From IMG/VR virus record IMGVR_UViG_3300011440_000020, positions 1 through 32,014 of that record: a stretch of DNA of 32,014 nt; one strand, given 5' to 3'. Every line of letters begins with the position of its first letter. Within the stretch, counting starts at the first letter, position 1. A program made the translations under genes and the position numbers. Below the pieces are notes generated by a model that saw nothing but the letters and a program-made list of their open reading frames with translations, was not told the DNA's origin and searched no databases. Positions 13,241 through 32,014 of the stretch are shown here, piece by piece. This DNA is from a virus.

Positions 13241-13858
13241 ATGGCCGGGTCGGGGTACCGCGATTGGGTTGCTGGTGATGTGCCGACCGCAGCGCAGTTC
13301 GACACGTATTTGCAGGAGCAGACGGTGATGGTGTTCGCGTCGGCAGCGGCGCGTGACGCCGCGTTGACGACCGTCAAGGCCGAAGGGATGACCTGCAAGC
13401 TGCTCGATGAGAACCGGGAGTACACGTACGACGGGGCGGCGTGGCAGCGGACCGGCTGGTGGGCATCAACCGGGCGGACCGGTGTCACCGCCCTCCGCAA
13501 CGCTGCACAATCGATCGCGAGTGATACGACGACAGCGATTTCGTGGGATGCCGAGACAGGTGACAGCGACGGGTTCCTCACCCCGACCTCGACTACGGTC
13601 ACGATCCCGTCCGGGTTGGGCGGGTTGTACGCGATCACCGCCCGCGTTGTGGCATCCGTGGGTCTGACCGGTGTCGCGATCACAGCAGGCGGCATCGCGT
13701 ACTCAGTCTTCGTCGACAACGCGATCGGCGACACACACGCCTACAGCTTGACGATGCCGCTCAACGCGGCGGACACCATCCAGTTCTCCGTCCGCCACAT
13801 CACTGGTTCACCCACGAACGTGACCGGCGCCATGTTTGTCTACCGGATCGGGTTGTGA
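13241..13858 (+). CDS. Minor tail protein, C1q-like jelly-roll candidate
   Basis: This 205-residue protein begins MAGSGYRDWVAGDVPTAAQ, the same kind of attachment segment as the previous gene. A central region has LLDENREYTYDGAAWQ, often found in fibre proteins. The last 130 residues alternate short strands (GLYAITARVV, AYSLTMPLNAADTIQFSV) and end in a hydrophobic FVYRIGL, which fits a C1q/TNF-like trimeric jelly roll that binds receptors. The fold call is by eye. It is the last gene before a likely two-way terminator. Confidence 0.6.
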   Translation: MAGSGYRDWVAGDVPTAAQFDTYLQEQTVMVFASAAARDAALTTVKAEGMTCKLLDENREYTYDGAAWQRTGWWASTGRTGVTALRNAAQSIASDTTTAISWDAETGDSDGFLTPTSTTVTIPSGLGGLYAITARVVASVGLTGVAITAGGIAYSVFVDNAIGDTHAYSLTMPLNAADTIQFSVRHITGSPTNVTGAMFVYRIGL

Positions 13859-13902
13859 TCGAGGGCCGGGAGAAAGGGCGAACTAACCACCGGCCCCCGA
13901 TC
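13857..13902. terminator. Stem-loop between convergent genes
   Basis: Bases 13857-13869 pair with 13890-13902 at 12 of 13 positions, with a 20-base loop. The element sits exactly in the 55-base gap between the end of the + strand tail operon and the end of the - strand lipoprotein gene, where a two-way terminator is expected. No T tract is present, as is common in high-GC phages. Confidence 0.65.
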
Positions 13903-13913
13903 GGCAACGGATG

Positions 13914-14285
13914 CTAGTCGCGGATAGGTGTCCCAGGCGGGGCATTGCCGGATCCTTCGACACATCCGGTCGGTGCCGACACCAACCCTTGCTCTTCGCA
14001 GTCGCGGTACACCCATCCCGGCTCGGCCGGCGGGGGCGGTTCCGTAGTGGAGCAGGCGTTCTCGTGGAACTCGCAGGTGTACGGCACACCATCAACGATC
14101 GGCGGCGCCGCCACCGCGGGAGCGGGTTCTGGTTCGACGACCGCTTCTGGGATGTCGACCTGTACGACGGGCGCCGGCTGACGTGTCGGCGTTTCAACGG
14201 CCGGGCCGACAGGGTTCCGGGCGACAGCACAACCGCCCCCAAGAACAGTGATAGCGAACAGTGTGAGGATGCTGAGGAGCTTCAT
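13914..14285 (-). CDS. Predicted lipoprotein, antisense to the late operon
   Basis: This 123-residue protein has a clear export signal (MKLLSILTLFAITVLGGGC): a Lys, a hydrophobic core and a Cys at residue 19 as probable lipidation site, although the residue at -3 is Gly rather than the usual Leu. The mature part is Pro/Ala-rich for about 45 residues, then has four Cys (in PYTCEFHENAC, YRDCEEQG and TGCVEG) suggesting two disulfides. It is the only - strand gene in the structural half and has its own promoter and terminator. Expression from the prophage and a role in blocking superinfection or altering the host surface are inferred. Confidence 0.78.
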   Translation of the reverse strand: MKLLSILTLFAITVLGGGCAVARNPVGPAVETPTRQPAPVVQVDIPEAVVEPEPAPAVAAPPIVDGVPYTCEFHENACSTTEPPPPAEPGWVYRDCEEQGLVSAPTGCVEGSGNAPPGTPIRD

Positions 14286-14361
14286 ACCTTCACCCTACGC
14301 CCGCACGGTGGGATGTCAACCGTTTTACGTGGTGGCGCACCCCTTTCAGCTCCTCAGCATC
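14268..14361. repeat. 14-bp perfect inverted repeat around the lipoprotein promoter
   Basis: Bases 14268-14281 (codons 2-6 of the lipoprotein on the other strand) are the exact reverse complement of 14348-14361. The arms enclose the promoter and start codon. They could be operator half-sites or the trace of a small inversion or duplication. Confidence 0.7.
14286..14319 (-). promoter_or_regulatory. Promoter of the lipoprotein gene, probably leaderless
   Basis: On the - strand a perfect -35 TTGACA (14319-14314) is followed after 16 bases by TAGGGT (14297-14292) as -10. Only six bases separate the -10 from the ATG at 14285, so the predicted start of transcription falls on or beside the start codon. 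No ribosome binding site fits in that space. This points to a leaderless mRNA from a strong housekeeping-type promoter. Confidence 0.75.
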
Positions 14362-14375
14362 GGGGATGCGCCACC
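14331..14375. promoter_or_regulatory. Bulged stem-loop upstream of the lysis operon
   Basis: GGTGGCGCA at 14331-14339 pairs with TGCGCCACC at 14367-14375. The next CCCC (14340-14343) pairs with GGGG (14362-14365), leaving one bulged A and an 18-base loop. It lies between the divergent lipoprotein promoter and the 14409 gene. It could end antisense transcription, mark the 5' end of the lysis mRNA or bind a regulator. Confidence 0.6.
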
Positions 14376-14408
14376 AACCCCCTGATCGTAGACCGCCGGG
14401 AGGTCCCG

Positions 14409-14621
14409 ATGGCGACCATCACTTTGACCATCCCCGACGCTGTCCTGCCCCGCGTGAGGGCCGCTCTCTGCACCCAAGCCGGACTCCCCGACTCGAACGC
14501 CAACGCCAAAGAGGCCGTCATCATGTGGATGAAAGCGACGGTGCAGGCGGTCGAGTATCAGGCGGCTGTCGCTGCCCGGGCCGACGTCGTCCAATCCGAC
14601 GTCACAGACATCGTCACCTGA
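14409..14621 (+). CDS. Hypothetical protein before the endolysin (70 aa)
   Basis: This 70-residue protein starts at ATG with GGGAGG upstream and overlaps the endolysin start (TGATG at 14619-14623). Its sequence, with TLTIPDAVLPRVRAALC and a following helix rich in Ala and Val, resembles short proteins found next to endolysin or tail genes in actinophages. No catalytic motif is visible. The tight coupling suggests a lysis or tail-tip accessory function, but this is inference. Confidence 0.6.
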   Translation: MATITLTIPDAVLPRVRAALCTQAGLPDSNANAKEAVIMWMKATVQAVEYQAAVAARADVVQSDVTDIVT

Positions 14622-15601
14622 TGCCCGCTACCGTTCGCGCAGGCGAGAAGGGCGTCGACTTCTCGTTCGCCAAACCGCCAGCGGCCCGACTGCTCGAGCT
14701 CGGCTACACGTTCGTTGTCGGCTACATCTCGATCCCGCCGGCGACCGCAGCGAAGAACCTGTCGAAAGCCCAGTGCGACGGCTACCTCGCCGCCGGGTTG
14801 AAGGTGTTGTTGGTGTGGGAGATGTCGGCGACCAGGCCGAACCTTGGCGCCTCTGCTGGTGCGACCGATGGCCGTAACGCCGCCTTCCAGGCCGCCGAGC
14901 GTGGCTATCCGCCTGACGTTCCGATCCTGACGGCGGTCGATACGAACACGACTGCTGTCAACGGTGACGCCCACCAGGATTATGTGGAGGCGTTCGCCGA
15001 TAACTGTTCGCCGTATCCGGTCGGGGTGTACGGCGACACCGACATCCTGACCCGCTGTAGCGGCCTGTGGCGGATCGGGTGGGTTCCTAACGCCTGGTCG
15101 TGGTCCGGTAGCTCACGCAAAGACGCAGAGGCCAAAGCGGCGACTGTAGGGGCACATGTGCTGCAACGCACCGGGTTCCACATCGACGGCCTGTGGGCGG
15201 TCGACCCGAACGACGCCATCGCCGACTTCCCCGCATGGGGCGTCGCCGTCGAACCACCGTCACCACCAACGACGCCGCCGGCTGAGCCGGTCGACGAGGA
15301 GGACCCAACCATGAGGATCAAGGCGGCAGGGCAATGGTTCGAGAAGGTGGGTGTGGATTTGCGGGCGATCGCGAACGGCGCCGAATACGCCGGGCTCGGT
15401 GGCAACGAAGTCCAGTTGACGAACCCGGAGATGGAGCAGCTGTTGGCGACGTGCCGGTACACGTACGGGGTGGCGAAGCCGGAGATGGGTGCGTCGTTCG
15501 TGGCGTTGTGGAACACGAAACGTGAACCCGCCCCCGGCTCGGGTGGTGGTGGTACCCCGGCGGAGTACACGATCCAGGGTGTAGCGCGACCTGTGCTCTG
15601 A
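14621..15601 (+). CDS. Endolysin, DUF1906 (Rv2525c-like glycoside hydrolase) type
   Basis: This 326-residue lysin has an N-terminal TIM-barrel domain of about 205 residues with hallmarks of the DUF1906 family: KGVDFSFAKPPAARLLELG at the start, FVVGYIS, KNLSKAQCDGYLAAGLKVLLVWE and a late IDGLWAVDPNDAIADFP. Such domains are thought to cleave cell-wall glycan. A Pro-rich linker near residues 210-230 leads to a C-terminal part of about 95 residues, probably wall-binding. A strong ribosome binding site inside the linker is aimed at Met231, so the C-terminal part may also be made separately. No signal peptide is present, so a holin is required. Confidence 0.85.
   Translation: MPATVRAGEKGVDFSFAKPPAARLLELGYTFVVGYISIPPATAAKNLSKAQCDGYLAAGLKVLLVWEMSATRPNLGASAGATDGRNAAFQAAERGYPPDVPILTAVDTNTTAVNGDAHQDYVEAFADNCSPYPVGVYGDTDILTRCSGLWRIGWVPNAWSWSGSSRKDAEAKAATVGAHVLQRTGFHIDGLWAVDPNDAIADFPAWGVAVEPPSPPTTPPAEPVDEEDPTMRIKAAGQWFEKVGVDLRAIANGAEYAGLGGNEVQLTNPEMEQLLATCRYTYGVAKPEMGASFVALWNTKREPAPGSGGGGTPAEYTIQGVARPVL
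15297..15313 (+). promoter_or_regulatory. Internal ribosome binding site and start inside the endolysin gene
   Basis: A perfect AGGAGG at 15297-15302 lies eight bases before an in-frame ATG at 15311 (Met231). Translation from here to 15601 would give a 96-residue product containing only the C-terminal domain. Several Gram-positive phage endolysins are known to make free wall-binding subunits in this way and assemble them with the full-length enzyme. Confidence 0.72.
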
Positions 15602-20707: not shown

Positions 20708-21853
20708 TCAGGTACCGGAGCTTTCGGTCCCGAATGCCCGCTCTATCGCCGCGACGGCCGCGAGCTCACCGACGTCGGTGCCATGCCCGTAGATATCGGT
20801 CGTCGTCGACGTCCGCGAGTGGCCGAGCCGTTTCGACACGGTCGTGATCGGCACCCCTTCATCGATGAGTGTGGTGGCGTGGAGGTGGCGCAGGTCATGC
20901 AACCGGATCCCGGTCGCGCCTTGTTTGGCGCAGAGCTGCCGCCACCGCAGCGACAACCAGCCCGGCCGCCGCGGGATCTTGCCGTTCGGGTCGACGCGCA
21001 GGTCAGCCCAGATCGGCCCCGCCGGATTCGGGACGGTGCCGAGCTTGGCGGTGACGGTCTCGAGGTGCGCCCACTGGACGGCGAGCACGGCGACGGCGAG
21101 CGGTGACAGGGCGATGGTGCGCGGCTCACCACCCTTCGGTACTTCTTTGACGCCAACGCCGCCGCCGGGTTTGTCGTAGACGGTGCGATGCACCACCAGC
21201 CGCCCATCCGCGACGTCCGGCCATGCCAGGCCGCAGAGTTCGCCGCGTCGTAGTCCGGTTAGCTGAATGAACCTGAGCGCTGTCGCCAGGTCGCCGGTGG
21301 CTGACGCGATGATCGCCTCCGCTGCCGCCACTGTGGGCGGTGTCGCCTTGTACCGGCGTGCTGTCGGCGGCGACGCGTTGAACGTCGCGATCCGCTCCAC
21401 CATGTCCCACTTCGCCCCGCGTCGCAGCATCGCCCGGAGGACGGTGTGGTACTTCCCGATCGACTGCGGGGTCATCCCGGCGTCGAGCAGTTCGCCGTAC
21501 CAGCGGTCGAGGTGGCGGGCGTTCAGGTCGTTGAGGAGCATCCGGCCGAACCGTTCGTCGATCACCCTGGCGATCCGCTGGTAGTTCGGCCAGGTGGTCG
21601 GTGACACCCGTCGCCGACGGTCGTCGAGCCATTCGTCTACGAGCTGGCCGACGGTGCCCTTGCGTTGCGCTATGCCGGTGAGCTCGGAGCGGATCCTGAC
21701 GCGGTGCTCGTCGGCGATCTTGTTGGCGGCGCGGCTGTTCGGCGCACGGAACGTCTTGGTGCGGGACGTGTCCCGACCGGTGCGCGGGTCAGGTCCGGCG
21801 TACACCCGTAGCTGCCACCGGTCCCCGCCGAGGTGTCGTACGCTGCCTGTCAT
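20708..21853 (-). CDS. int: Tyrosine site-specific integrase
   Basis: This 381-residue recombinase integrates the phage into the host chromosome. There is an N-terminal arm-binding region, a core-binding SAM-like domain (about 65-150, TVGQLVDEWLDDRRRRVSPTT) and a catalytic domain with Arg202 (TGLRRGE), His319 and Arg322 (LHDLRH), His345 (LGHS) and nucleophile Tyr355 (TDIYGH). All catalytic residues are present. It starts at ATG with GTGAGG nearby. The putative attP lies about 70 bases upstream of the start. Confidence 0.95.
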   Translation of the reverse strand: MTGSVRHLGGDRWQLRVYAGPDPRTGRDTSRTKTFRAPNSRAANKIADEHRVRIRSELTGIAQRKGTVGQLVDEWLDDRRRRVSPTTWPNYQRIARVIDERFGRMLLNDLNARHLDRWYGELLDAGMTPQSIGKYHTVLRAMLRRGAKWDMVERIATFNASPPTARRYKATPPTVAAAEAIIASATGDLATALRFIQLTGLRRGELCGLAWPDVADGRLVVHRTVYDKPGGGVGVKEVPKGGEPRTIALSPLAVAVLAVQWAHLETVTAKLGTVPNPAGPIWADLRVDPNGKIPRRPGWLSLRWRQLCAKQGATGIRLHDLRHLHATTLIDEGVPITTVSKRLGHSRTSTTTDIYGHGTDVGELAAVAAIERAFGTESSGT

Positions 21854-21925: not shown

Positions 21926-21970
21926 GCCCCCGTAGCTCAGTCCGGATAGAGCAACGGCCTTCTAATCCGT
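21926..21970 (+). other. attP: Putative attP core: 5' half of tRNA-Arg(TCT)
   Basis: These 45 bases read as a tRNA from position 1 through the anticodon stem: acceptor strand GCCCCCG (21926-21932), TA, a D arm closed by GCTC/GAGC, and anticodon arm ACGGC-CTTCTAA-TCCGT with anticodon TCT (21961-21963). The last stem pair (C-T) is mismatched, and no T arm or acceptor 3' strand follows. A tRNA half next to an integrase gene is the normal sign of an attachment site. The host target would be tRNA-Arg(TCT). The 5' half is carried rather than the more usual 3' half. Confidence 0.75.
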
Positions 21971-22372: not shown

Positions 22373-22780
22373 TCATAGGGCGGAAGAAGTCTCTTCTCCG
22401 CGTCGTCGTCCCGCGTGAGTGTGTGACATCACAGCCAGATCATCCAACGTCTCGGCCATGTCAGATAGTCGCGATGCGAACGCCTCCTGTAGACGCTCGA
22501 CGCGCTCAAGCCTGACCGCCAGCTCATCGAGCTCGGCCGGAGGTTCGTCGGCGAGGATGGTTGGTTCGTGGCCGGCGACGAGCCGGTCGTACCAGTCGCG
22601 GCCGACCCAGAGTGCGTTAGAGACGCCGAGTTGTGTGTCGGTGCCGGGTGGGTGGCGGCCGGCCTCGAGGTCGTACCAGGCGGTGCGTGAGATCCCTGCC
22701 AGTTCTGAGGCGCGTTTCACGCCGAGTTTGAGTGTCTGTCTGCGGGCCTTCACCCATGCGCCTACCTGCGGATCTGTCAC
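22373..22780 (-). CDS. Immunity repressor, XRE-type helix-turn-helix
   Basis: This 135-residue protein has an N-terminal helix-turn-helix (VKARRQTLKLGVKRASELAG, then ISRTAWYDLEAGRHPP) and a C-terminal helical part (about 75-115, ELAVRLERVERLQEAF) suited for oligomerisation. It has no autoprotease motif of LexA/CI type, so induction probably does not use RecA-driven self-cleavage. It is transcribed away from the Cro-like gene, with operator copies in the shared 129-base promoter region. GTG 22780 is the start; the predicted mRNA start is at the same place. Confidence 0.82.
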   Translation of the reverse strand: MTDPQVGAWVKARRQTLKLGVKRASELAGISRTAWYDLEAGRHPPGTDTQLGVSNALWVGRDWYDRLVAGHEPTILADEPPAELDELAVRLERVERLQEAFASRLSDMAETLDDLAVMSHTHAGRRRGEETSSAL

Positions 22781-22811
22781 GCCCCTCAGTATGAACGGAC
22801 ACGGTCTGACA
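22781..22811 (-). promoter_or_regulatory. Repressor promoter and operator 1
   Basis: On the - strand a -10-like CATACT (22793-22788) ends seven bases before the GTG start at 22780, again leaving no room for a leader. The 15-bp operator GGACACGGTCTGACA at 22797-22811 lies just upstream, where bound protein would touch RNA polymerase. The -35 is weak (TTGCTG at suitable spacing). Autoregulation is inferred. Confidence 0.55.
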
Positions 22812-22822
22812 CAGCAAGCAAC

Positions 22823-22852
22823 TACAAGGAGAACAATAAGCCGACCCTTGTA
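22823..22852. promoter_or_regulatory. 7-bp inverted repeat in the divergent control region
   Basis: TACAAGG at 22823-22829 is the reverse complement of CCTTGTA at 22846-22852, with 16 bases between. It lies between the two promoter areas and differs from the main operator, so it could bind a second factor. No other evidence is available. Confidence 0.4.
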
Positions 22853-22873
22853 ATTACGCAGACGAAGTCTTGC

Positions 22874-22909
22874 TTGTCAGATCGTGTCCGATAGTGTACG
22901 GTCTGACAC
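22874..22909 (+). promoter_or_regulatory. Early (cro) promoter with operators 2 and 3, probably leaderless
   Basis: TTGTCA (22874-22879) and TACGGT (22897-22902) are separated by 17 bases. The ATG of the Cro-like gene at 22910 lies seven bases after the -10, so the transcript should start at the start codon. Operator 2 (22875-22889) is the reverse complement of operator 1 at 14 of 15 bases and covers the -35. Operator 3 (22894-22908) matches it at 12 of 15 in direct orientation and covers the -10. Repressor binding would therefore block this promoter. Confidence 0.72.
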
Positions 22910-31426: not shown

Positions 31427-31947
31427 ACGGCCCCGGGAAACGCATCCTCACCACAGCCGTCGCCGTACAACACCTCGCCCTCGCCGCACGCCACCGCCTC
31501 GACACAACCATCCCCCGATTGTCTTCCGAACTCGACGCATACGACGGCTACCCCCCAACCGCCTCCGGATCCGACACAGGCGGCCACTCCCCGTACATCC
31601 CCCACGGCCCCAACGCCTCCACCAGCTCCACCGAACGCGCAGCCATCGCACCCGACGAACGCAACAACACAGACACCTGGGCCATCGGAGCACGCGCCGC
31701 ACTCACAGAACTACAGGACTACCTCGACGCCGCAGTACACGCCCTCGAAACCGTCATCCGAGAATGCGACCGCCGCCACCCACCCATGAGCGTCATCGAC
31801 ATCTCACGCCTCCGCTGCGCCACCATCCCCAAAGGCACCTGCACTCAATGGGCCGACCCCCAACGTTCGGACGGATACTGCATCGACCACGGCCGAACCA
31901 TCGACTCCAACGCACGACGCAAACGGCGGACAATCGGAGCAGCGTGA
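31423..31947 (+). CDS. Conserved-type actinophage protein with C-terminal Cys cluster (174 aa)
   Basis: This 174-residue protein has a helical N-terminal half (TTAVAVQHLALAARHRLD), a disordered middle (PPTASGSDTGGHSPY), a helix with ALTELQDYLDAAVHALE, and a C-terminal cluster (LRCATIPKGTC, DGYCIDHGR) likely to bind zinc. The sequence resembles actinophage early proteins of unknown role. ATG 31423 gives ATGA coupling to the zinc-ribbon gene. Its 3' end runs into the terminal repeat and is therefore also present at 1-56. Confidence 0.65.
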   Translation: MNGPGKRILTTAVAVQHLALAARHRLDTTIPRLSSELDAYDGYPPTASGSDTGGHSPYIPHGPNASTSSTERAAIAPDERNNTDTWAIGARAALTELQDYLDAAVHALETVIRECDRRHPPMSVIDISRLRCATIPKGTCTQWADPQRSDGYCIDHGRTIDSNARRKRRTIGAA

Positions 31948-32014
31948 TGCGGGTATCACACACAGATCACCCCAACAGGTGTATAAGCTTGCCGCACCAG
32001 CCGTGTCCCCAACA
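31892..32014. repeat. Terminal direct repeat, right copy
   Basis: This is the exact duplicate of bases 1-123. Joining the ends here makes the 31423 gene, the tiny ORF at 56 and the HNH gene continuous. Confidence 0.95.

Follow-up and report, generated by a model that had tools for sequence, protein, structure and literature searches.

An antisense lipoprotein gene with a predicted leaderless promoter, a candidate superinfection-exclusion factor of an apparently temperate, probably actinobacterial phage

Introduction

The bor gene of phage lambda lies near the lysis genes and is oriented opposite to late transcription. Accessory genes that run antisense to late genes from a promoter of their own form an established class (PMC7067206), and the prophage-expressed Ltp lipoproteins are known as superinfection-exclusion proteins (PMC3952083). 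In Mycobacterium smegmatis, SigA prefers a TANNNT −10 box located between −13 and −6 relative to the start site, and leaderless mRNAs make up 24% of the transcripts (PMC6448022).

Here, we describe a lipoprotein gene on the − strand inside the late region of a viral contig of 32,014 bases. This whole stretch of DNA is referred to as the window.

Results

The lipoprotein gene (13914–14285, − strand) begins with an ATG and is defined by its translation, by a lipoprotein-signal detector and by the lipoproteins found at the same place in related contigs. The protein has 123 amino acids, starts with MKLLSILTLFAITVLGGGC, and contains a predicted signal peptide, the lipobox LGGGC with Cys19, and four further cysteines; its middle part is rich in proline and valine. 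The lipoprotein signal was judged by sequence pattern, using a purpose-made detector run on both strands of the 32-kb window. The detector returned exactly one match, the ORF running from 14285 to 13914, against 0.06 matches of at least 70 amino acids in shuffled windows. This result bears out the preliminary description of the DNA, which had claimed a − strand ORF with an export signal, Cys19, and four other cysteines. The gene has a weak codon preference (0.018 vs 0.24–0.27 in the neighbouring late genes), as for a gene of recent acquisition.

The window lipoprotein has no match at E ≤ 1 in the Pfam scan, which included Ltp (PF07553) and Bor, and none in PHROGs (E ≤ 1) or NCBIfam, Bor again included. 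No anti-phage defence model of PADLOC is matched by it, and Rfam yielded no family. Since Pfam, PHROGs, NCBIfam, and PADLOC give no match, the lipoprotein is filed under neither the Ltp, the Bor, nor a defence family and, judged by its sequence, is a member of a new protein group. Neither this lipoprotein nor those of its relatives, when searched against viral contigs and phage records, returned anything beyond the related contigs already identified. The structure model reached a pLDDT of 53, too poor for use.

Upstream of the gene, the order of elements is TTGACA-N16-TAGGGT-GAAGGT-ATG, where the −35 box (14314–14319, − strand) and the TANNNT-type −10 box (14292–14297, − strand) are separated by a 16-nt spacer and the latter stands 6 nt before the ATG at 14285. 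The pattern TTGACW-N16-18-YANNNT occurs a single time in the window (0.6 expected from shuffles); if a start codon must also stand 6 nt further on, the expectation falls to 0.015 per shuffled window. From the position of the TANNNT box in M. smegmatis and the 6-nt gap, the A of the ATG is predicted to be the first transcribed nucleotide, giving a leaderless mRNA. The window promoter sequence by itself is also compatible with a short leader, and an SD-like AGGG/AAGG precedes the ATG. A generic sigma-70 scan reported no promoter at the gene, because TAGGGT agrees with TATAAT at three of the six positions only, while fitting the actinobacterial TANNNT box.

Related contigs were reached from the endolysin and a tail protein and gave the loci L003 (= L087), L009, L004/L006, and L005. 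In these four distinct relatives, a − strand lipoprotein gene encoding 78–95 amino acids is found in the same place, between the fibre and endolysin genes. Outside the signal peptide, the lipoproteins of the window and its relatives are barely alike, L003 and L009 excepted. The promoters read TTGACA-17-CATAAT in L003, TTGACT-17-CATGAT in L009, TTGACA-18-CATAGT in L005, and TTGACT-16-TATGGT in L004. Although these sequences differ, the distance from the −10 box to the first start codon is exactly 6 nt in all five loci, the window among them. The arrangement in the preliminary description, a TTGACA and a TAGGGT placed for a start at the ATG, is thus confirmed, with its geometry kept in the five loci; by sequence and geometry, the gene has the predicted promoter of its own that marks a moron.

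In the relatives, the lipoprotein gene comes after a small gene and is preceded by an SD sequence (by eye). The first gene of the cassette encodes a ribbon-helix-helix protein in L009 (Pfam RHH_1, E 1.9e-7), an HTH protein in L005, and in L004 a Cys-containing protein similar to part of WhiB-like phage regulators, while in L003 a Cys-containing protein comes first and a ribbon-helix-helix protein (E 3.2e-4) second. The window cassette has no small regulator-like gene, and the lipoprotein gene stands directly behind the promoter. The promoter spacers of L009 and L004 contain palindromes (CCGATAGCGCTATCGG and TAACCTAGGTTA, respectively), possible operators for the small regulators.

When L003 is compared with L009, pN/pS of the lipoprotein frame is 0.13, and 14 of the 19 changes fall at third codon positions; one + strand frame comes close to this ratio with 0.19, but no + strand ORF spans the region there. 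This pattern of substitutions shows purifying selection on the − strand lipoprotein frame in the two loci. The lipoprotein and the distal part of the fibre are each 95% alike in L003 and L009, and the values are low for both in all other pairs, while the endolysins are 70–78% alike. The lipoprotein could vary jointly with the fibre tip, a reading for which L003–L009 is the single informative pair and which linkage alone could explain.

Comparison by eye of L003 (4700–5000) with L009 (8400–8800) indicates that the endolysin has been swapped, Rv2525c-like in one and GH25-like in the other. The breakpoint falls within the regulator part of the cassette, and fibre and lipoprotein genes remain together. 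In a further phage, whose capsid protein is 57% identical, an antisense lipoprotein (VGCNRTSKASNPAITRINAETDC) lies in the late region (L095:8702–8926, − strand), with a CATGCT box 6 nt before the ATG and a weak −35 element. In the distant relatives L032, L035, L041, and L062, the leaderless promoter pattern precedes − strand WhiB-like genes (WhiB by eye). Some lipoprotein-like ORFs in distant loci look like chance ORFs and were set aside.

On one side, the lipoprotein gene is convergent with a tail-fibre-like gene (13241–13858, + strand; phrog_22682, E 2.8e-7). On the other, it is divergent from a small late gene of 70 amino acids (14409–14621, + strand), next to which lies the endolysin gene (14621–15601, + strand), with an Rv2525c glycoside hydrolase-like domain found by profile matches; this gene served as the anchor for finding relatives. 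The stop codons of the tail-fibre-like gene and the lipoprotein gene face each other across a hairpin (13857–13902; −33 kcal/mol, z −4.85). A terminator stem had been proposed downstream of the gene. The strong hairpin is there, but it has no T-run after it and is not listed by the terminator scan, so that its role as a terminator is doubtful; a U-less bidirectional terminator is possible. The stop codons of the two converging genes overlap in L003 and in L009, and a terminator at this spot is therefore not general.

A second hairpin (14330–14376; z −4.58 for the − strand, −4.38 for the + strand), with 14-nt arms and 93% pairing, stands directly upstream of the −35 box. Its loop is exactly complementary to lipoprotein codons 2–7 and holds the second arm of a perfect 14-bp inverted repeat (14268–14281 and 14348–14361), the only one of 14 bp within 120 bp in the window (0.03 expected). 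Together, hairpin and repeat, neither of them in the preliminary description, may be a remnant of an inverted duplication or may serve as a control element acting on late or read-through RNA.

The contig ends in an exact 123-bp direct terminal repeat (1–123 = 31892–32014), and the genome of ~31.9 kb is therefore probably complete. Its + strand carries the terminase, portal, capsid, tape measure, and endolysin genes. A tyrosine integrase gene (20708–21853, − strand) was identified by profile matches, and an HTH repressor-like gene (22373–22780, − strand) has two exact copies of TGTCAGAYCGTGTC upstream. Together with two degenerate copies, these lie in 22798–22908, between the divergent repressor-like and cro-like genes, and are probable operators of the repressor. 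Both exact copies in the window stand beside the repressor gene and none at the lipoprotein promoter. With an integrase and a repressor-like gene in a closed genome, the phage looks temperate.

The terminase kin in named phages belong mostly to phages of Mycobacterium, Gordonia, Propionibacterium, Arthrobacter, and Microbacterium, which makes an actinobacterial host likely; hosts of this kind produce many leaderless mRNAs. Named phages have no DNA match to the window, and the kinship of its integrase with theirs is too distant for naming a host. When the tail and capsid proteins were used to scan bacterial genomes, no prophage of the same lineage turned up, so we infer both host and lysogeny. 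The integrase has no match in the relatives' contigs, which are fragments. Adjoining the integrase start, at 21926–21969, is GCCCCCGTAGCTCAGTCCGGATAGAGCAACGGCCTTCTAATCCG, which we take to resemble the 5′ half of a tRNA-Arg(TCT) gene and which is the probable attP core. An attP core with the 5′ rather than the 3′ half of a tRNA gene would be unusual.

Discussion

We read the gene as a moron lipoprotein expressed in lysogeny by a temperate, probably actinobacterial tailed phage, most likely excluding superinfecting phages, and give this reading a probability of about 0.5. From the SigA-type promoter TTGACA-16-TAGGGT, an mRNA beginning at the ATG would be made antisense to the late operon and independently of it, and the prophage would thus produce the protein while the late genes are silent. 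After export and cleavage ahead of Cys19, the lipoprotein would be fixed by its lipid to the outer face of the membrane, from which a flexible stalk rich in Pro and Val and a C-terminus containing Cys would extend. Anchored in this way, it would most likely block the entry of superinfecting phages, for example kin with the same surface receptor. Exclusion is slightly favoured because the lipoprotein varies with the distal fibre while the endolysins stay 70–78% alike. The preliminary description had likewise seen a gene expressed by the prophage, a likely superinfection-exclusion or conversion factor. The independent, predicted leaderless promoter, the coding frame, and a phage with integrase and repressor genes but no copy of the putative operator at this promoter uphold it in part, while the protein falls outside the PF07553 Ltp family and all families tested.

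An identical architecture would be expected of a Bor-like lysogenic conversion factor, a surface lipoprotein that aids the lysogen in its environment without any effect on phages. In lambda, the lysogen expresses bor and lom as fitness genes (PMC7067206), and the rapid divergence of the lipoprotein sequence among the relatives agrees with such a role. Divergence alongside the fibre tip suits a phage-related role slightly better, and we regard conversion as a serious possibility rather than the likely answer. That the transcript itself is the active part, as an antisense RNA against the tail-fibre and late mRNA that limits late expression or excludes kin, has a precedent in the STnc6030 RNA of prophage BTP1 (PMC7067206) and would make use of the antisense position within the late operon, the 14-bp inverted repeat, and the strong hairpins. 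It is nevertheless improbable: what all relatives keep at the site is a lipoprotein frame and not the nucleotide sequence, this frame has the pN/pS of 0.13 in the L003–L009 comparison, and the antisense stretch spans the cassette itself, not the fibre gene.

As a small Pro-rich lipoprotein adjoining the endolysin gene, the product could also be a lysis protein resembling an outer-membrane spanin, and the L005 lipoprotein weakly matches an Rz-like spanin (phrog_456, E 0.043). The window lipoprotein has no such match, the opposite strand and separate promoter predict that it is not late-expressed, and the terminase kin point to monoderm actinobacterial hosts, which have no outer membrane to require a spanin; we consider this role quite improbable. 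Some immunity proteins of polymorphic toxins in Mycobacterium abscessus prophages are predicted lipoproteins expressed by the prophages (PMC8092301), but no toxin-like gene was seen adjoining the lipoprotein gene in the window or its relatives and PADLOC gave no match, making an immunity lipoprotein of a toxin system very improbable here. Finally, the + strand frame is open across the region (ORF 13911–14621), and a − strand frame with codon bias this weak could be a chance ORF opposite a long ORF. We rejected the + strand ORF as a true gene, its codon score being −0.07 against 0.018 for the − strand frame and its protein Arg/His-rich and unlike a gene product. With the lipoprotein signal, the promoter, and the site conserved in relatives, a non-gene on the − strand is hardly credible.

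Beyond the preferred reading of a lysogeny-expressed exclusion lipoprotein, we tentatively propose a wider model, which as a whole is rather unlikely to hold. The site between the tail-fibre and endolysin genes would be a hot spot for interchangeable leaderless cassettes, made of an optional DNA-binding regulator and a lipoprotein, in an uncultivated actinobacteriophage lineage. Each lipoprotein would be matched to the adjoining fibre tip and hide, in the lysogen, the receptor that the phage itself uses. Such receptor-linked exclusion in monoderm hosts would resemble that of Cor/Llp of enteric phages. The moron lipoprotein plan is already known; new here is the cassette of regulator and lipoprotein, predicted to be leaderless, at a conserved site. 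A leaderless SigA promoter antisense to late genes may serve as a sequence-recognisable mark of prophage-expressed genes in uncultivated actinobacteriophages, and the locus directs attention to a diverse group of surface lipoproteins, as yet unnamed, with a probable influence on which phages can infect lysogens.

Among described systems, Rz1-like o-spanins are late genes co-expressed with the endolysin in diderm hosts, and the window gene, with its probable monoderm host, fits neither feature. The defence genes that mycobacteriophages express in lysogeny (Sbash 30/31, cluster N phages) are comparable as prophage-expressed accessory genes of temperate actinobacteriophages adjoining tail genes, whereas Sbash 30/31 are RexAB-like and transcribed rightward, and the paper mentions no lipoprotein (PMC6426596). 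The antisense moron locus STMMW_20121 of ST64B is alike in being antisense to lytic genes and independently transcribed (PMC7067206); the likeness is one of layout, as STMMW_20121 belongs to another host group and is not known as a leaderless lipoprotein. Lambda Bor is similarly a lysogen-expressed lipoprotein encoded outside the immunity region (PMC7067206), but sits in the outer membrane of a diderm host, and the window protein does not match its family. The Ltp gene of phage TP-J34, whose product blocks DNA injection by incoming phages, lies in the lysogeny module, whereas the window gene lies inside the late region behind a predicted leaderless promoter, and PF07553 is absent from its product. 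The two proteins have the lipobox-Cys signal pattern in common, and Ltp is, as we propose for the window protein, a small lipoprotein made by the prophage and anchored on the outer side of the membrane, from a phage with a Gram-positive host (PMC3952083).
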